Positions 6,440 to 60,800 of a stretch of DNA of 64,000 nt are shown here, one piece after another. The notes under the pieces are model-generated. The model was not told the DNA's origin. It worked only from the letters and a program-made list of their open reading frames with translations, and ran no database searches. The stretch comes from Brachypterus glaber (taxonomy: Eukaryota; Arthropoda; Insecta; Coleoptera; Kateretidae): positions 7,355,340 through 7,419,339 of the forward strand of contig OY294050.1 of the NCBI GenBank assembly GCA_958510825.1. Reading direction: 5' to 3'. Position 1 is the stretch's first letter, and every line of letters begins with the position of its first letter. The translations under genes and the position numbers were made by a program.

Positions 6440-6811
6440 TTCCTCACTTCTAGCAACTCCAGAACACTTCTGTGCATTCGTATGTATTATTAAACACACA
6501 CACACACCAATCCCTACTGCCCATGATATATTTGTATATCTTAGCCAGAACACTTTTGCATATTCGTATGTATTATTAAACACTTTTGCGCATAGATATG
6601 TTTTACCAATCTCTAATGCGCATGATATATTTGTATATCTTTGCGAGAACACTTTTGCGTATTCGTATGTATTATTAAACACGTTTGCGCATAAATATGT
6701 TTCACCCATCTTTTCTGCGCATGATATATTTGTATATCTTTGCCAGAACACTTTTACGTATTCGTATGTATTATTAAACACTTTTGCGCATAAATATGTT
6801 CCACCAAAATG
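6440..6811. repeat. Tandem array, about 4 units of 99 bp
   Basis: The marker CGTATGTATTATTAAACAC recurs at 6479, 6565, 6664 and 6763 (spacings 86, 99, 99). Between markers lie GCGCATGATATATTTGTATATC and GAACACTTTTGCGTATT. Because 99 is a multiple of three, long frames stay open on both strands (a 159-codon minus frame and a 130-codon plus frame). These are by-products of the repeat, not genes. Confidence 0.85.
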
Positions 6812-21321: not shown

Positions 21322-21925
21322 CTGTTAGAATGCTCTTACAAGCCGATATGCCAAAAAACCGACTATCAGAAAATACAAGTGCTCCATACATGTATACCTA
21401 TATGCCTGATAAAGAAAATAAAAAGCCGAAACGTTGGTGAATAAAAAGCCGAAGCTATAATATCGAATTCAATATAAAAATCTATAGATTTCTTTGTGAT
21501 GTTTTGTTTTTAAGGTTATAACCCTGTCGGTTATGGCCTATTTATATGTAGTTAAAAAAGTTAAGATTTCTTTCTGATAATAACGATTAATACTAGTTAT
21601 ACTAGTTCTAGTACTAGTATACTAAAGTATACTCGGATCAATATTTTTAAAACTTGAAATTTTATTTAAAAAAACTTGTGTGAATCAAATGCCATTTTTA
21701 AATTTAATATGGATCGTATGAGATCGAATTCATAATAAAAATCTAGATTTCTATGATTTTCCGTTAATTTCCTGATGTTAACTATCAATATGGTCGAAAC
21801 ATGGAATTTTATATAGCCTATGACACGCACGTGAGAGATACAAATCTTTGACGCCCCAATTGTTAAAATTAGCATAGTAGTTTAGGCTCTAGAGTGGCAT
21901 AAATAAACATACATGTATACATACA
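21322..21925. other. Spacer with retroelement-type CCGAAACGTTGG words
   Basis: GCCTGATAAAG..GCCGAAACGTTGG occurs near 21401. This word is typical of ends of several retroelements. No coding sequence precedes the LINE fragment at 21927. Confidence 0.4.
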
Positions 21926-21926
21926 T

Positions 21927-22460
21927 ATGGATACTTTAGAAAAATTACCTCAGATAAATGGCCAACCCATTAACTGGGAAAACCATGCCAAATACCTCGG
22001 CATTACAATCTCCAAAAACTTGACGTGGGATCAGCACGTCAAAAACACCCTCCAAATAGCAAATTGCCGCCTCTCCAAACTCTACCCCTTAATAGGCAGA
22101 AAGAGTCCCCTATCCATTAAAAACAAACTTCTTCTCTACAACCAAACCCTAAAGCCGGTACTTCTTTACGGAGCCCCAGCCTGGAATAAAATCACCCTTA
22201 ACAAAGCGCTCTCAGCAAAACTTCAGGCCTTCCAAAACAAGGCACTCAGAATATGCCTCGATGCCCCCTGGTTCATGAGGAACAACCAGATACACAGAGA
22301 TCTCGAAATGCCCCTCCTAAAAACGGAAATCATCCGCTACAACACGTCTTTTATACAAGACAATTTAGATCACCCAAACCCCCTCATTTCAAACTTTCTA
22401 GATTACGATCATGAAATACACAACACTCACAAAAAGATCAAAAACGTCCTCAACCAGTAA
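21927..22460 (+). pseudogene. Jockey-like non-LTR retrotransposon: reverse transcriptase C-terminus
   Basis: The 177-residue frame starts at the element's 5' truncation, not a native start. It contains AKYLGITISKNLTWDQHVKN at about residues 27-46, the conserved post-thumb motif of jockey-type polymerases. LLYNQTLKPVLLYGAPAWN follows at about 88-106, and then an ALRICLDAPWFMRN block. The catalytic fingers/palm (including FADD) and the endonuclease are absent. The reading frame is intact to its stop, which suggests a fairly young 5'-truncated insertion. Base composition (C-rich, about 43% GC) differs sharply from the surroundings. The matching 3' untranslated region follows at 22461-22765. Confidence 0.88.
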
Positions 22461-36635: not shown

Positions 36636-36692
36636 ATAATTTATAATATATTATTCTATCAATCTATTTTCTAATCATCGTAGAGAGTGATA

Positions 36693-36737
36693 TTGGTAGA
36701 CTGACAGTTTCGGGCTGCTAGCCCTCTTCAGTACCAA
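36693..36737 (-). ncRNA. Hammerhead ribozyme 1 (type I)
   Basis: On the minus strand: stem I TTGGTA, core CTGAAGA, stem II GGGCT-AGC-AGCCC, core GAAA, a short stem III (AC/GT around TGTCA), cleavable GTC, then TACCAA closing stem I. All invariant core bases of the CUGANGA/GAAA consensus are present. Predicted cleavage is after the C at 36699. The outer stem I extension is weakened in this unit (ACTCTCTAC instead of ACTCTGTAC). Confidence 0.9.
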
Positions 36738-37037
36738 GAGTCAACTCTGCACGCTGATTAAGAAAACGTTTTTAGACTTTATTCGCAAAAGGAATATAGC
36801 CACTAGATTGATGTAGACTTGTGCGCCATCTATTGCTAGACAACTACTAATACTCTCCTAGTCTGGAGTCTGAATGGTAGCAAGTTGAAGACTTGTGTGT
36901 TTCAAGAACATAGTACCACTAACGTGTGGTTAGACGTAGAATTAGTAAGGACAGAAACTTCTAATTTTAAACAAAATTATAACAATATTAATTTATTATT
37001 CCATCAATCTATTTTCTAATCATCGTACAGAGTGATA

Positions 37038-37082
37038 TTGGTAGACTGACAGTTTCGGGCTGCTAGCCCTCTTCAGTACCAA
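37038..37082 (-). ncRNA. Hammerhead ribozyme 2 (type I)
   Basis: Same core and stems as ribozyme 1. It also has a second helix of stem I, with GTGCAGAGT upstream pairing ACTCTGTAC downstream across an internal loop, the layout that supplies loop contacts in natural fast-cleaving hammerheads. Cleavage is predicted after the C at 37044. Confidence 0.92.
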
Positions 37083-37388
37083 GAGTCAACTCTGCACGCT
37101 GATAAAGAAAACGTTTTTAGACTTTATTCGCAAAAGGAATATAGCCACTAGATTGATGTAGACTTGTGCGCCATCTATTGCTAGATGTAGACAACTACTA
37201 ATACTCTCCTAGTCTGGAGTCTGAATGGTAGCAAGTTGAAGACTTGTGTGTTTCAAGCACATAGTACCACTAACGTGTGGTTAGACGTAGAATTAGTAAG
37301 GACAGAAACTTCTAATTTTAAACAAAATTATAACAATATTAATTTATTATTCCATCAATCTATTTTCTAATCATCGTACAGAGTGATA

Positions 37389-37433
37389 TTGGTAGACTGA
37401 CAGTTTCGGGCTGCTAGCCCTCTTCAGTACCAA
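37389..37433 (-). ncRNA. Hammerhead ribozyme 3 (type I)
   Basis: Identical to ribozyme 2 in core, stem II, stem III and both parts of stem I. Cleavage at this site and at 37044 would release a 351-nt RNA. Confidence 0.92.
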
Positions 37434-37739
37434 GAGTCAACTCTGCACGCTGATTAAGAAAACGTTTTTAGACTTTATTCGCAAAAGGAATATAGCCACT
37501 AGATTGATGTAGACTTGTGCTCCATCTATTGCTAGATGTAGACAACTACTAATACTCTCCTAGTCTGGAGTCTGAATGGTAGCAAGTTGAAGACTTGTGT
37601 GTTTCAAGCACATAGTACCACTAACGTGTGGTTAGACGTAGAATTAGTAAGGACAGAAACTTCTAATTTTAAACAAAATTATAACAATATTAATTTATTA
37701 TTCCATCAATCTATTTTCTAATCATCGTACAGAGTGATA

Positions 37740-37784
37740 TTGGTAGACTGACAGTTTCGGGCTGCTGGCCCTCTTCAGTACCAA
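37740..37784 (-). ncRNA. Hammerhead ribozyme 4 (type I, weakened)
   Basis: Core CTGAAGA/GAAA and inner stem I are kept. Stem II has one change (GGGCC-AGC-AGCCC) that opens the top pair. The upstream outer stem I sequence is lost, because the unit is deleted just beyond GACTC before the junction with a family C fragment at about 37800. Confidence 0.85.
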
Positions 37785-37799
37785 GAGTCACGCTGATTA

Positions 37800-38130
37800 T
37801 GAATAATTTGGCTGATAAATGGAGAAAACCAATTTAACTTCCAACATGGCTATTTTTAAATTAACTCGATTTTTATTAATATATTAAAAACATGATCCAA
37901 AAAAAATTGTTGGACTTCTTCCTCCTTAACAAAATTGGTTACATGAATTTTTATCGTAAGATGCATATTAAGCAACTCACCCCTAAAATTCAAGATAGCG
38001 GACACCCCTTACGCAAATAAACCGGTGAAAAACTAACAGGAGTGTGCTGTTACCATCCACTACTATCCTTTAAAATATCAGCCCGTGTACATTTATTTCA
38101 ATTTACATTTATTATTTGACTGGACTATAT
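37800..38130 (-). mobile_element. Family C element, right-end fragment
   Basis: Starts inside GAATAATTTGGCTGATAAAT, then TTTTTATCGTAAGATGCATATTAAGC, CACCCCTTACGC and GGTGAAAAACTAACAGGAGTG. It continues through TGTTACCATCCACTACTATCC and GTACATTTATTTCAATTT to TATTTGACTGGACTATAT, the complement of the family C left tip. The ribozyme array replaces its left half. Confidence 0.8.
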
Positions 38131-44649: not shown

Positions 44650-46264
44650 TACAGGGTTATTCAGAAATAAGTTCGAAAAATTTAAGAGGTGATTCTACGT
44701 TAAAAAATATGAAAAAAAGTTCCTATGAGGGTTGGTCCGGAAATGATCCTAAGGAGCTACGACCCTCCTAAGGGTACATCTAAAAAGTAGTTTTTATTTA
44801 ATATTTCTGGAACCCTGTATACCACAGTAACGAATTTTCGCACATGCCTCAGCATTGATAAAGGGTCTCATTTAATGTAATTTTTATTTAGTAATTTTAA
44901 CCAGGGACGTGCAAAATGGGGGGGGGGGGAGATGTCACTTTTTTGACATTTTCTCAATAAAATATTAATCTTTAAATAAAAATACATAAAAAGGTACTCT
45001 TTATGTAACACCGTAGAGCTAAAAAATGCACCAATAAAAATTTCAATACTGCAGAGAGATTCTACATTAAAAACTATGAAAAAAATATTCCCATACACAA
45101 ATATCCAAAATCGCCGTTAAGGGCCTTAAAAAGTGTTACTAGTAAGTAAGTAAGTCAGTAAGTAAGTAAGTCTATATTCGTGTTAAAATATACAAAAGTA
45201 TTTACACTCGTCAAAATAGTACAATAAAAATATAAAAAAATTACAATAAGAATATTTAATCTAAAATGGTAATTAGTAAATACATAAATACAAAACATAT
45301 CACTCAATAATAAAATCTAGAAAATCATTTAAACTATAAAAAGCGTGCTTGCAGAGAATTTCTTTTATAGATTTTTTAAAACTTTTAAAATTCATGTTCC
45401 ACATTCTTTGTGGCAGCTTATTCATAAGCTTCGTTGAAATATATTTGAAACTATTATGTGTTTTACTTAAAAGGTAATATTCACTTCTTATTTGACCACT
45501 ATTCCGTGTATTGTATTGGTGGACATGTTCGCCTAATTTACTATCATTTAAGTTGTTAAATGCAAAAAGTAAGCACTGAAGGATATATAACCACGGTAAA
45601 GTGAGTAAACATAAACTTTTAAATGATTCCTTACAATCGTCTCTACTGTATATCCCAGGCCGCTTAAAATTCTACTCTTTAAGAGGCCGTAGTACTCTTA
45701 AAACTGATTTTCGAACCTAGATGTATAGGAGCTTTTTTTCACAGTTTTTAACGCAGAATCACCCTGCAGTATTTAAATTTTTATTGGTGCATTTTTTAGT
45801 TCCTATTTTTGATGCTCAGAACGTAAAATTGTCTCTTTAATTGCAATTTTCTCGAAAACGGTTGGCTCTGCGGTGTTACATAAAGAGTACCTTTTTTATC
45901 TATTTTTAATTAAAGATTAATATTTTATTGAAAAAATCTCAGAAAAGCTACAGATAAAAAAGTTTGAGGCAAAAAAGTGACATCGTCCTCCAATTTTACA
46001 CGTCCCTGGTTAAAATTACCAAATAAAAATTGCATGAATTGATAGCATTTATCAATGCTAAGGCATGTGCAAAAATGGGCTACTGTGGTTAATAGGGTTC
46101 CAGAAATATTAAATAAAAACTACTTTTTAGATGTACCCTTAGGAGGGTCGTACCTCCCTTAGGGCTCATTTCCGGGCCAACCTTTATAGGATTTTTTTTC
46201 ATATTTTTTAACGTGGAATCCAAACCTATTAAATTTCTTGAACTTATTTCTGAATAACCCTATA
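44650..46264. mobile_element. Large foldback element, about 1.6 kb, with LINE insert
   Basis: Terminal inverted repeats of several hundred bp, from TACAGGGTTATTCAGAAATA to TATTTCTGAATAACCCTATA. They run inward through TTAAGAGGTGATTCTACGTT, CCTAAGGAGCTACGACCCTC, AAAGTAGTTTTTATTTAATA and CCAGGGACGTGCAAAA. The block from TTAAGAGGTGATTCTAC to GAGCTACG is also in the element at 53762, so the two families share subterminal sequence but have different tips. Confidence 0.85.
45304..45680 (-). pseudogene. Non-LTR retrotransposon reverse transcriptase C-terminus, 5'-truncated
   Basis: An ATG-less frame on the minus strand, ending in TGA at 45306-45304, reads PGIYSRDDCKESFKSLCLLT, LPWLYILQCLLFAF, EHVHQYNTRNSGQIRSEYYL and later KLMNKLPQRMWNMNFKSFKK. 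This order (RD.CK..FK....TLP.LYI..CLLF, then H.YNTR, then LP..., then FK..I) is the C-terminal region of CR1/Daphne/Crack-type LINE polymerases. A (CTTA)n-type tail lies downstream at 45136-45172 (AGTAAGTAAGTAAGTC on plus). The catalytic palm is absent. The frame is open for about 115 residues. It lies in the middle of the 44650-46264 foldback. Confidence 0.85.
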
Positions 46265-54415: not shown

Positions 54416-54567
54416 TTAATACATTATTCAAAATTTGCTTTCTTTTGCCCCTTACCCCCTGGTAGCTTTTCTTCTATACTTTGAGTACAGTTTACACAAA
54501 CCAGTAATCATTTTATTTACAGTCCTGAATTTAAGATAATAATACTACTAATACTAATAATACTTAC

Positions 54568-54845
54568 GGATTATATAAAATTATTGCAGTTAAACCATCA
54601 GGTCTCAAAAACGCCATTACTCTGATTTCTTCATGGTTTAATCTAGTTTCAATCCTTCGAGATCCTGGTACCACATATTTTGAAAAATGTCCCAGAACAT
54701 AAAACATAGGCTGCTTGTAAAATTCTCCCGTCTTATTATTTGCAATAATCGGCGAGTCTACGTTATTTCTGATTATTAAAGGACCTCCAGTGGTATCAAG
54801 GACCATGTTCCAATCCACCCAGGCAACTGCGTTATATTCAAAATT
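54568..54845 (-). CDS. Glucosylceramidase exon 9
   Basis: NFEYNAVAWVDWNMVLDTTG, GPLIIRNNVDSPIIANN, KQPMFYVLGHFSKYVVPGSR and FLRPDGLTAIILYNP. The WVDWNM and FY.LGHFSK.V.PGS motifs are diagnostic. Donor GTAAGT after two bases of a codon (phase 2). Confidence 0.96.
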
Positions 54846-57800
54846 CTTAAAAACAAAATTAAATAGATATTATTACACATCAACACAACAGCTGAAAAAA
54901 TTCCTGGGTTCTGTTAACCGATTCTGAACCTACCTAATGCTCAGTTACTAGCCTTTACTAATTTTCGGCAAAAAATATTGAAATTTTTAAAAATTTTGTT
55001 GCCATATTGGATCTGCCATATTGAATTTTAAATTTTTAAGATCTATTCGGTTTCAGCAATCTCAAAAACCCTATCGAAACTCTAATTATACTATAGTCTG
55101 TTTCATCAAGCAAGATAGTAAATTAAAAATCGCACAGTGAATATTTTCCAAACAGATTCGAATATTGGATGGGCGAATATACTGCGTAGTTTATTTTATA
55201 AAACATAACTATATTCTATACACAAACATATACTGTTCAAACCTGTTGTAAAAATATCTACTGTGCGATTTTTAATTTACTATCTTGCTTGAAAAAACCG
55301 ACCATAGAGTAAATTAGAGATAATGTGAAGTTACTTCATTTAAGTAGAGATGTTATAAAGTTTGTATTTATGAAATATGGTTTGTTTCCTCAAGCAAGAG
55401 AGTAAATTAAAAATCGCACTGTAAATATTTTCAAAACAGATTCGAATATTGGATGTGTGAATATACTGCTATATTCTATACACAAACATATACTATTCAA
55501 ACCTGCTGTAAAAATATTTACTGTGCGATTTTTACTCTCTTGCTTGATGAAACAGACCATAGATGTCTTATGAAAATAGGTTGTTATCGAGTATATATCG
55601 ATACCCCTAAGCAACAAAGCCGTAACTCATATATTGTCATTTTTCACGACAGCTAAATTTCTAAAATATTTTTTTTCTTATTTAAGGGTGGGTAAATGAT
55701 TGAAGTGGAAAAGGAAGTCATGTGATACATCATTAGAAAGCTTATAAATTTCTCTATTTAACTGTTTAAGTATTTATTGTTTATTTACTGTTTGTTTCTG
55801 ATTCAAGTTTAGAATTTCTTACTTTAGTGATTTTAAGTAAACTTTTGCTTAAAGTGGACTGTGGAGAAACCTGAGTAGTACCACCATGTGTGTCTTTTTT
55901 CAAGGCGTTTACCTATGAGTATAACTCAAAATGGGTCTAACTTGAGTTACATCCTTGTTGCTTGGGAGTGTCGATATGTTACAGACTATTTATGTTTTTT
56001 TAGTGTAACAATGGTTACACTGCAGTAACTTAATATTATACTTTAAATAAATATGCTTTCATTCTGAAATATAAAATTTATCCTGTTGTTTCTTACCTCA
56101 AAAATGTCCTTCGCATATTTTTCACCTCTTAACCAACTTCCTAGCTCTACTGCGGGCTCAAGGTTTTGAATAAACCGAAATCCTAAAGGAAAATATCAGT
56201 AAAATAGTGTGGCCTATGGTCTGTTTTATCAAGCAAGAGAGTAAATTAAAAGTCGCACAGTAAATATTTTTACAACAGGTTTGAATAGTATATGTTTGTG
56301 TATAGAATATAGTTATGTTTTATAAAATAAACTACGCAGTATATTCGCACATCCAATATTCGAATCTGTTTTGAAAATATTCACTGTGCGATTTTTAATT
56401 TATTCTTTTGCTTGATCAAATAGACCATAGTTTTAAATTAGTTTACTGGAATCTAATGACTGAAAAATTTTATGGTTTTAGGATCTGTTTTTTTTCTAGA
56501 CTCCTAGAGATCTGAGTATATTTTTTTTTAATAAATTTCTTACCGTTACATGCTTCACTTGAAAGTAAAAATAGGTCCTTTGCAGGAGTTTTAGCGTATT
56601 CTAAAACTTCTGCTGGAGTGATGTCATCCAAATACCAATGAACAGCTACTCCATCAATATATTCCAAAGTAGTTTTATTATTAATCATCTAAAAATACCA
56701 GTCTTACAACCAAATAAAAAAGAAAAGCCTACTAGTATATTTTTATATTCCTACCTTTGTTATATTTGGCAAATACGTCCTTTGATCATCGTGAACCATA
56801 ACTTTAATATCACTAAATTTGGATTTTTTTAAAGTCGGACCTAAATTGGTTCCAATGAAATCGTTCTAAAACAATGTTTTTATTAGCTTTTAAATTAAAA
56901 GTAAATTAATAATTTGGAACTTTTTGATTTAATAAATAAACCATATGCTTGTGCTAGGGGCTCTCCACAATGTGGAGTGCACATTTTCCAAAAAAATTCA
57001 TAAATTCACTTATATACTAGTATATATACTATATAATCTATATAATAAAATCGATAAGATATCTGTCTGTCTCTCTCTGTCTATCTGTCTCTGTATGTCT
57101 GTCTGTCTGTATATCTCTCTATCCTTCCAGAGAAGGTTCATTCCCAAATGTACACTTGGCATCTACATCAAAAACTTGCTGATGAAAAAATTCTGAAACC
57201 CCAAATTTTTCTTTCGGGGACAATAACATGCTTAATATTTAGCACACGCAATTGAGATTTTATTCAAAATAAATAATAATTTCATATTAAAAAAATGGCT
57301 GAACAACATCTCGTCGTATATAACTGACAGCTGTTTTACGATTGACATGCCGGTTGCCTACACTGTGCGCGCGAAAAAAATCACTTTTCTGCTTGCTGTC
57401 ATGGTAACGAGGAGAAAAGTAAAATACTAAGAAATAGGTTATTTTGAAGTCTGAAAACTTCATTTGTTTTTGTAGAAATGTTAACTTTTCTATTAGATCG
57501 TAGAAAAATAAATTATTACCATCTGATCTTCTGTCCACCCCATATCATTAAGAGTAAGGGTATCTTCAAGTCCATTAGCTGGTTCATTCTGAACCGTCAT
57601 TCCCCAAAAATTGATTCCTTCCTTCAAATATTCTTCAAAAAACTTTACAAAATATTCAGCCCAAAGTTGATAATACTCCTTTTTGAGGAATCCCCTTCCA
57701 AACCAATTGTTATTGGTTTTCATCCATATTGGTGCAGTCCAGGGCGATGCGAAAAATTTGATTTTTTGGTTTCTTAAGGAAAGAGCTTCTTTCATATAGG

Positions 57801-60800
57801 GAATCTAAAATTAAACTATATAGTATATTCTATAACTAGTATGGACGGTCCCGCGAGCGCGGAATGACTATTCCATACGTGTTGTAGACTATACTTTTTC
57901 TTCGACTGCAAATATGAAACACTGTATGGCTTTGAACTGCGGACAAGGTTAAAAACAATGTTTTTGTGACTCGAAATTGTAAATGCAACAAAACACATAT
58001 TTTTAAATAAAGCAAAAGTCCAAACGAATGCAAATATGAAACACTGTATGGCTTTAAACTGCGGACAAGGTTAAAAACAATGTTTTTTCTGACTCGAAAT
58101 TGTAAATGCAACAAAACACATATTTTTAAATAAAGCAAAAGTCCAAACGAATGCAAATATGAAACACTGTATGGCTTTAAACTGCGGACAAGGTTAAAAA
58201 CAATGTTTTTGTGACTCGAAATTGTAAATGCAACAAAACACATATTTTTAAATAAAGCAAAAGTCCAAACGAATGCAAATATGAAACACTGTATGGCTTT
58301 AAACTGCGGACAAGGTTAAAAACAATGTTTTTTCTGACTCGAAATTGTAAATGCAACAAAACACATATTTTTAAATAAAGCAAAAGTCCAAACGAATACA
58401 AATATGAAACACTGTATGGCTTTAAACTGCGGACAAGGTTAAAAACAATGTTTTTTGTGACTCGAAATTGTAAATGCAACAAAACACATATTTTTAAATA
58501 AAGCAAAAGTCCAAACGAATGCAAATATGAAACACTGTATGGCTTTAAACTGCGGACAAGGTTAAAAACAATGTTTTTTGTGACTCGAAATTGTAAATGC
58601 AACAAAACACATATTTTTAAATAAAGCAAAAGTCCAAACGAATGCAAATATGAAACACTGTATGGCTTTAAACTGCGGACAAGGTTAAAAACAATGTTTT
58701 TTGTGACTCGAAATTGTAAATGCAACAAAACACATATTTTTTAATAAAGCAATTAATGTTATTTAATAATTTTATCAAATCAGTACTTAAAAAAGATTTT
58801 TATTTAATTTTAGCACATATTTACAAATTATAATGCAAAAATTGAGGGTTATGTCAGATTGTTGTGACAGATATCAGGATTAAATATTTCAAAATAGATG
58901 GAGCAGTTTTAAGTTTTTGAACTAAATTGATAAAAAACTGGTCAAATATTAAGAAAAAATAATAAACTTTATGTAATTTTAACGCAAAAATTCAAATTGC
59001 ATTAAATTATTCAATATTTCATGATAAAATATATATATTTTTGCTAATTTTGCTACAGTTTTCTTTACTTTTATAAACAAGAGATGGCACTACATGTGCT
59101 CATTCTAATACTTGATACGGAATATTCATACCGTAGCTAGAATGGATTCATTCTGTGTTTGAAAAGTGTGTGTATTTGCTTACATTCTAAAGGAGTCGTA
59201 GAAAAAAATTATACTATTTTCTTATTTTTTTTTATAAAGTTACCTTATATTCTAAATCTTCATACTGCAAAGCAAAATTTTCCAAATTAACATCATTTTC
59301 AGTATCATCTAAACTATACCTCCTTATTGAATAATCGGTACCTCCAATTGGTACTCTGCATAAACTATACTCAATGCCGCTTTTTCCAAAATAACTTTCC
59401 AATAAGTAGTTTTGAACTGTTTTGGGCAAAGAAGCAATATTTAGACCTAAAAACGTTTTAGTTATAAATAAAACTTATTGAAGCTTAAAAGAAGAACATG
59501 CTAGATGCTTCATTTTTTCATATTTAAGCATACATATTTATTTGTATTTACCTGTAGAATCAGAAAAAGCTCCTCCAAATCCCAGTATAGTCTGATATTT
59601 TTTAGAGTAATTTATTTCAATTTTAATACTTGTGTCACAATCTTCTTTATGGTGCCAAGTTGACTAAAACATATTTTAATAAAGGCCAGGAACTAAGACG
59701 AAAGCTACCATTATCATATGAAGACCAAGACTTGTGTCAAAGATACCAAGACAAACCAAGTCTCAGTCTTGTTCATTTCTTGGATCAAGTAAAAGTGCCT
59801 GGTTTATATAATATGGTTTCTTGTATTGATTTTTAAAGAAACTTGAACAAAAGATTACAAGTAGATATATCAGCCATTCAATTACCAAATAATCTAGTCA
59901 TTTTAAGTGTTTAAAGAAATTTTTACTTCTTTCAACATACTGCTCCTTTATTGTATATTTTTGAATGTCTAAGCATGAACACCAATATATCCGCACACAA
60001 ATGTAAATTTAGGCGGATTTTCTATAAATTTATTAATTAAAAATGTAAGGTTAATATTTTTGAATAAATTGAATTGAATTACATTAAATTTTTTTTTGTT
60101 TAACCTCGTACTATTCGACTTAATTAAGCATTCTTTAAGTCCAGGACTTGTGTGGGCTAGTAGTAGAGGCAACCACCGGCTTTAATTGAATTTCGAAGCA
60201 GTTTATGGGGAGAGTCCGCTTCACTTACGCCTTCGCCAAATTTTAATTATTAATTAACTGAAAAAGGCAAATCGGCGCCGGTGAGAATCGAACTCACGCT
60301 ATTGGGGTAGTAAAGTCGTCAAGTACGACGCGGTAGTCCACTACACCAATCCTCCCATATAATAATTGAATATAACTCTCAGGAAATAGGTATTACATGT
60401 ATCACAAATACTTAATATTAGAATATTATTTCTTTGTGTGTACTTTTTGTAAACGACAGTAGGTATAAATAAAATAAATATTTTAAATGTTTTTAAATTT
60501 TACCACCATACCTTTTTCAGTGCAACTTTTAGTTTAAATCCTGGATTCTTTTCACTTGTCGTTATTAAGTTATATTGTCCATTTTTAATATTTATTTTTG
60601 GTGCTGTATCACAATACGTTGAATTACAAACACAAACGGCACCTTTTTCTGTCTTTTTTACCGCACAGCTTTTGGAAAATGCACTTCCTTTAAAAAATAT
60701 AAAATATGAAAAATAATTTTAAATTTTTCACATTAGAATCAAACATACCGGGTGTCCCACCAGGTTCTTGACAAGCTATATCTCCGTTATTTTAAGGCAT

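Follow-up and report, generated by a model that had tools for sequence, protein, structure and literature searches.

Which enzyme moves animal retrozymes had been an open question. LINEs or Penelope-like elements (PLEs) have been named, and PLEs are favored through shared ribozymes, tandem copies, and co-occurrence (PMC7229834, PMC7761336, PMC11722881); the first of these papers describes PLEs as a strong candidate helper of retrozymes, and the other two say much the same. In the anole, the PLE reverse transcriptase (RT) starts at two adjacent internal sites of its RNA, with the main start 111-118 nt into the ORF and the ribozyme cut at 26, and the protein cleaves and extends both target strands (PMC11167929). 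A typical Penelope insert of Adineta consists of an inverted pLTR, a 9-bp duplication, and an optional 31-bp tail on one end (PMC3846280). Here we analyze a hammerhead array in a window of Brachypterus glaber DNA (the whole stretch analyzed, 64,000 nucleotides) and its relatives elsewhere in the host genome.

The initial annotation of the window had reported four type I hammerhead cores on the minus strand, carried by units of 345-351 bp. Our own hammerhead descriptor (stem I, CUGANGA, stem II, GAAA, stem III, UH, stem I, in that order) was run over the whole 64 kb and found these four minus-strand hits and no others, while 60 order-1 Markov simulations of the window gave one hit in total at the stem lengths met by all four real copies. 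Independent tandem-repeat detection returned a period of 351 bp with 3.3 copies and a 98% match, confirming the array. The features are listed below, with unit positions numbered such that u1 is the first base after the hammerhead cut.

36646..37800, minus strand: whole putative retrozyme array with four hammerheads, its sense strand being the minus strand (descriptor and tandem-repeat search)
37740..37784, minus strand: hammerhead 1, counted in the sense direction; cleavage predicted between 37746 and 37745
37389..37433, minus strand: hammerhead 2; cleavage predicted between 37395 and 37394
37038..37082, minus strand: hammerhead 3; cleavage predicted between 37044 and 37043; folded
36693..36737, minus strand: hammerhead 4; cleavage predicted between 36699 and 36698
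37395..37745, minus strand: cut-to-cut unit, 351 nt
37044..37394, minus strand: cut-to-cut unit, 351 nt; unit folded (z -3.96)
36699..37043, minus strand: cut-to-cut unit, 345 nt
36646..36649, minus strand: 3' end of the array at the putative proximal start site (about u50-53), tailless type
36946, minus strand: u98 of the last full unit (CTGTCCTTA^), the putative distal start site of other family members (motif position)
37785..37800, minus strand: 5' array end near u292, where 8 bp are deleted; an inverted arm and a significant duplication are both lacking

The units follow one another head-to-tail and have a GC content of 0.36. The u98 motif recurs at 37297 and 37648 and is not an end in the window copy. 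That no protein is encoded, as first proposed, was borne out: the longest stop-free run in two 351-nt units (three laps) is 59 codons. All four copies have type I topology, every invariant core base, and three helices. The three pairing stems originally described are therefore all present, but stem III amounts to an A-U pair plus 2 bp, and stem I is longer than first stated, as an outer helix, GUGCAGAGU/ACUCUGUAC, closes and extends it in the fold of the hammerhead 3 region. Hammerhead 1 has four stem II pairs instead of five, and the stem I flank upstream of it is 8 bp shorter than in the other copies. Folding of the ribozyme region gave a minimum free energy (MFE) of -30.9 kcal/mol (z -4.4) with stem II and the two-part stem I present, and the predicted MFE structure pairs the short stem III region differently from the hammerhead model. 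The whole unit is also strongly self-paired (-94.8 kcal/mol).

A covariance-model hit, proposed at the outset as a check with the RF00163 type of model, was not obtained at Rfam thresholds. In the window, no family scored above its gathering threshold, and relaxing the thresholds over 1601 bp returned no hammerhead either. When 101 bp were searched, the RAGATH-1-hammerhead model recognized the right strand and core at a subthreshold 16.4 bits (E 0.91; gathering score 56.3). Given how short stem III is in this motif, we regard the missing Rfam hit as weak evidence against a hammerhead. A scan of viral contigs with one exact core pattern gave 0 matches.

The window holds several other features. 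On the minus strand, 54564-54869 and 57493-57804 are exons of a GH30 (glycosyl hydrolase family 30) gene. Adjoining a GH30 exon, at 57903-58752, is a tandem array with a 123-bp (or 245-bp) unit and a 98% match, in which the hammerhead descriptor had no match. A 99-bp tandem repeat (6505-6807, 3.1 copies) lies within long open frames on both strands. By eye, 21903-22460 (plus strand) and 45300-45671 (minus strand) resemble C-terminal pieces of non-LTR reverse transcriptases; neither has a Pfam hit.

A 401-bp query against the 648-Mb host genome gave at least 96 matches, which fall in the window itself and at 39 further loci spread over nine contigs. As 40 of 1294 candidates were scored and the best-scoring copies sampled, 39 loci is a lower bound; all 39 were fetched for analysis. 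Units at these loci are mostly 354 bp, and for the most part the family ranges from 345 to 354 bp. Differences average 0.76% within an array (21 arrays) and 1.9% between arrays outside the window, while the window unit differs from the other loci by 4.4% on average and by 3.7% at minimum. At this distance of about 4%, the window array represents a subfamily that is older than, or separate from, the other copies. The initial annotation had named loss of core bases in most genomic copies as one outcome that would refute its reading. Instead, the invariant core bases are intact in 125 of the 128 hammerheads recognized in the tandem arms, a count that tolerates up to 6 edits and that badly decayed copies would escape. 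With the variable site 336 excluded, changes were seen at 22 of 5537 hammerhead positions versus 274 of 33838 elsewhere, about half the rate (Fisher p 3e-4).

Examination of the fetched loci revealed a recurrent insertion anatomy. At 29 of the 39, a shorter inverted arm lies head-to-head on the 5' side of the long tandem arm. The outer ends of both arms cluster at about u50-62 or u97-107, that is, about 53 and 98 nt past the cut, and 27 of the 29 inverted-arm loci pair an end at one site with an end at the other; 14 of them do so in one orientation and 13 in the reverse. The 27 include L038, which was assigned by eye since the script ran into its duplication (26 by script alone). The two exceptions are L029 (u51/u75) and L044 (u82/u50), the latter with several inversions. 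An inverted arm is absent at ten fetched loci and in the window; on the left side, L026 and L031 are cut off by N. Even among these 11 arm-less loci, the right end falls at one of the two sites in all except L020 (u208). The same rule extends to a tiny insertion without a ribozyme at about 1743-1856 of L061, which comprises the region around the two sites and has, as read by eye, one end of each kind.

Arrays terminate at or near target-site duplications. Flanks taken from different loci served as controls, and L026 and L031 were omitted for their N. Duplications of at least 12 bp were found at 20 of 38 loci versus 0.28% of 1406 mismatched flank pairs, and duplications of at least 9 bp at 27 of 38 versus 3.6%; 18 of the 38 loci thus have none of 12 bp or more. 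The candidates are 8-13 bp long in 25 of 35 cases, and the AT content is 0.82 in duplications of at least 9 bp versus 0.71 in the flanks. In the window copy, the candidate is 7 bp, no better than chance. Dispersal to 39 other loci, retention of the core in 125 of 128 copies, duplications above chance, and the absence of coding capacity uphold the retrozyme assignment made from the window alone, and the array is best read as one copy of a metazoan-type retrozyme, protein-less, ribozyme-bearing, and dispersed.

The junctions and ends carry further traces of the insertion process. At the arm-arm junction, microhomology of at least 2 bp was present in 15 of 28 loci (null 17.8%, p 2e-5; L044, with its several inversions, left out). 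In these 28 loci, the unit positions at which the arms join are separated by 7-177 nt; the inverted arm is therefore not a snap-back copy, and this source was ruled out. Overlap of at least 2 bp between target and RNA occurs at 26 of 47 outer ends, compared with a rough expectation of about 8% that we estimated from base composition alone; L017 and L035, whose duplications lie away from the ends, were omitted. The overlap reaches 12 bp at L027. Such overlap is what target priming predicts. Rare variants specific to an array are carried by its inverted arm in five of six testable cases, the sixth being in the end zone, and at site 336, the inverted arm matches its own array in 15 of 17. This sharing of variants indicates that both cDNAs were made from the same or a sister RNA.

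PLEs are resident in the same genome. A search for the GIY-YIG family yielded at least 31 matches, several of them in long frames, with the best 150 of 419 candidates scored. RVT_1 and GIY-YIG occur together in three resident frames, one of the RVT_1 hits being below the cut-off, and Coccinella septempunctata supplies the best named relatives of one resident PLE protein, at 37% identity. We counted 13 head-to-head insertions at distinct places with a duplication of at least 11 bp in a set of 28 PLE-related loci (L048-L075), some of which overlap. Left out of this count were L070, in which the inverted repeat has no match among PLE ends; the paired arms of L059, which are parts of one long inverted pair running beyond the locus; and L052, L058, and L071, whose arms lack an 11-bp duplication. 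All 13 insertions, which form five end families by eye, have one tailed and one tailless end. The duplication touches or overlaps the shared arm end on the tailless side (gap -14 to +1) and is displaced outward by 20-28 nt on the tailed side, where the tail measures 26-36 nt. Counted by hand from an assumed ribozyme cut position, the cut-to-end distances are about 54-60/87, 68/95, and 71/100 in three PLE families, and the tailed end of a fourth is at 98, compared with 53/98 in the retrozyme.

The PLE repeats in L062, L064, L052, L053, L055-L057, and L061 contain hammerhead-like motifs with GAAACGTT and scant room for stem III, and in two PLE families there is an extra base between CUGANGA and stem II. 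At L058 (G000 C556:1-9999), two tandem PLE copies with a 3000-bp period, 97-99% alike, lie beside a complex satellite-like repeat.

Taken together, the fixed paired ends, the same anatomy in resident PLEs, and the published pair of start sites make PLE machinery the most likely mover of this retrozyme. The initial annotation had held that mobilization would depend on a helper retroelement; we retain that view and narrow it to PLE-type machinery on the strength of the paired ends. When the unit was compared by blastn with 10 PLE loci, none of them contained a PLE with the retrozyme's own start-site sequence, and we therefore name no specific helper. We think it very probable that the array belongs to a dispersed metazoan-type retrozyme whose RNA is moved in trans by a PLE RT with its GIY-YIG endonuclease. 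Minus-strand (sense) transcripts would fold into type I hammerheads and self-cleave to RNA of about 351 nt, and the cleaved RNA may be circularized by a host ligase. Downstream of the ribozyme, this RNA would offer two RT start sites, as in PLEs. In single folds a stem-loop spans the two start sites, though no part of the model rests on it. The PLE RT with GIY-YIG endonuclease, acting in trans, would cut both strands of an AT-rich target, and both target 3' ends would prime on a single RNA species, one starting about 53 nt and the other about 98 nt past the cut. At least one cDNA would run round the circle, or along an uncleaved multimer, to give the tandem arm. Joining of the two cDNAs head-to-head, often at microhomology, and fill-in would then leave the target-site duplication.

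Several other explanations account for part of these observations. Target-primed reverse transcription by a LINE, with the inverted arms due to ordinary twin priming, would also yield duplications of 9-13 bp, inverted 5' arms, and junction microhomology, all of which are found in the retrozyme family. However, twin priming fixes only the 3' end, whereas here both outer ends are fixed at two sites, one per end, in 27 of 29 loci. The resident PLEs show the same end pairing in 13 of 13 insertions, and the retrozyme ends inspected have no A-rich or microsatellite tail; we consider a LINE quite improbable as the mover. Harder still to credit is ordinary satellite DNA that spread by unequal exchange with a relict ribozyme. 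The repeats are indeed tandem, and hammerhead satellites are known in cave crickets (PMC2837043), but short arrays scattered over 39 loci and nine contigs, with fixed ends and inverted arms, are not what this predicts, and the duplications in the main refute it. A different question is where the retrozyme came from. It may be an internally deleted PLE derivative, in essence tandem pLTRs, rather than an unrelated retrozyme that borrows PLE machinery. The order of parts, hammerhead and then two start sites, is the same in both, as is the insertion anatomy, and a review proposes that retrozymes arose by PLE reduction (PMC11722881). On the other hand, similarity of the unit to the 10 PLE loci is limited to the separate mini-insertion in L061 and a 27-bp match in L063 (E 0.18), and the retrozyme hammerhead has a stem III, for which the resident PLE motifs hardly have a counterpart. 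We judge this origin rather unlikely; it concerns ancestry and does not exclude movement by PLE machinery.

Within the explanation by PLE machinery, the template may be either a circle or an uncleaved multimeric transcript of a genomic array, in which case the hammerhead would be unneeded for insertion. The units of L022 and of L023 vary in ways that copying from a single monomer circle would not produce, and these arrays look as if copied from a mixed source array. In vitro, moreover, the anole PLE used unprocessed RNA, its ribozyme was dispensable, and ribozyme mutants inserted as before (PMC11167929). Against a multimeric template, the hammerhead is kept in 125 of 128 copies and is slow to change, and arrays differ less within themselves than from one another (0.76% versus 1.9%). 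A further point against it is L040 (G000 C2:9910500-9915900), an array with ten hammerheads in which the nine full units are identical across 3.3 kb except for an A-B alternation at two linked sites. With four of the nine units being B, strict alternation would arise by chance once in 126 by our own arithmetic, and it was seen in one of few long arrays. This pattern is suggestive of a dimeric circle of 708 nt, but unequal exchange or an ABAB source transcript would also yield it. An uncleaved multimer is a possible template, if a somewhat doubtful one.

Returning to PLE machinery as the mover, we lean, with some reserve, toward a general form of the model. We hypothesize that animal retrozymes are satellites of PLEs: the ribozyme would generate an RNA circle, one or two units long, that displays the PLE two-site start module, and on it a PLE dimer would prime one cDNA per cut strand, one at each site, with rolling-circle copying producing the tandem arrays. 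If true, the pairing of one tailed with one tailless end would be a general rule of PLE integration, in which two RTs act on one RNA in one event. The one-of-each rule, with 14 versus 13 loci by direction, also leads to a testable statement, namely that a PLE uses one start site per target strand. Paired fixed ends provide a sequence-level fingerprint that can be checked in any genome. Among titles and the starts of abstracts, we found no PLE-type ends described in retrozymes; subscription papers were thinly covered, and an earlier description is possible.

Of the known systems, pDo500 of cave crickets is likewise an insect tandem repeat with a hammerhead, but it is described as satellite DNA, whereas the present family consists of short dispersed insertions (PMC2837043). 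The plant LTR retrozymes are also non-autonomous retroelements that bear a hammerhead. They have a type III hammerhead, LTRs, a primer binding site, and 4-bp duplications (PMC7229834, PMC7761336), in contrast to the type I hammerhead, the lack of LTRs, and the longer duplications of the window family; the type I topology and the 8-13 bp length of 25 of 35 duplication candidates rule out a plant LTR retrozyme. The metazoan non-LTR retrozymes are much closer: like the window family, they have a type I hammerhead, tandem repeats of about 150-450 bp, no LTR, a GC content below 50%, a dispersed distribution, no protein, and, when present, duplications of more than 4 bp (PMC7229834). The head-to-head arms, the two fixed end sites, and the one-of-each rule of the present family are features that we did not find described in that paper, whose main text lacks the words "inverted," "tail," and "truncated."

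The comparison with Penelope/Poseidon-type PLEs is the converse. The retrozyme has no ORF, and with no RT or GIY-YIG frame in its unit, it is not an autonomous PLE; the unit is 345-354 bp, compared with about 3000 bp in the resident tandem PLE at L058. The overlap between target and RNA at the retrozyme ends also differs from the anole PLE, whose start site is not homologous to the cut DNA (PMC11167929). The tail is about 45 nt in the retrozyme, 26-36 nt in the resident PLEs, and 31 bp in Adineta (PMC3846280). Nevertheless, the retrozyme family and these PLEs share the head-to-head inverted arm, the short duplication, the tail on one end, and two internal start sites with the ribozyme upstream of both (PMC3846280, PMC11167929).
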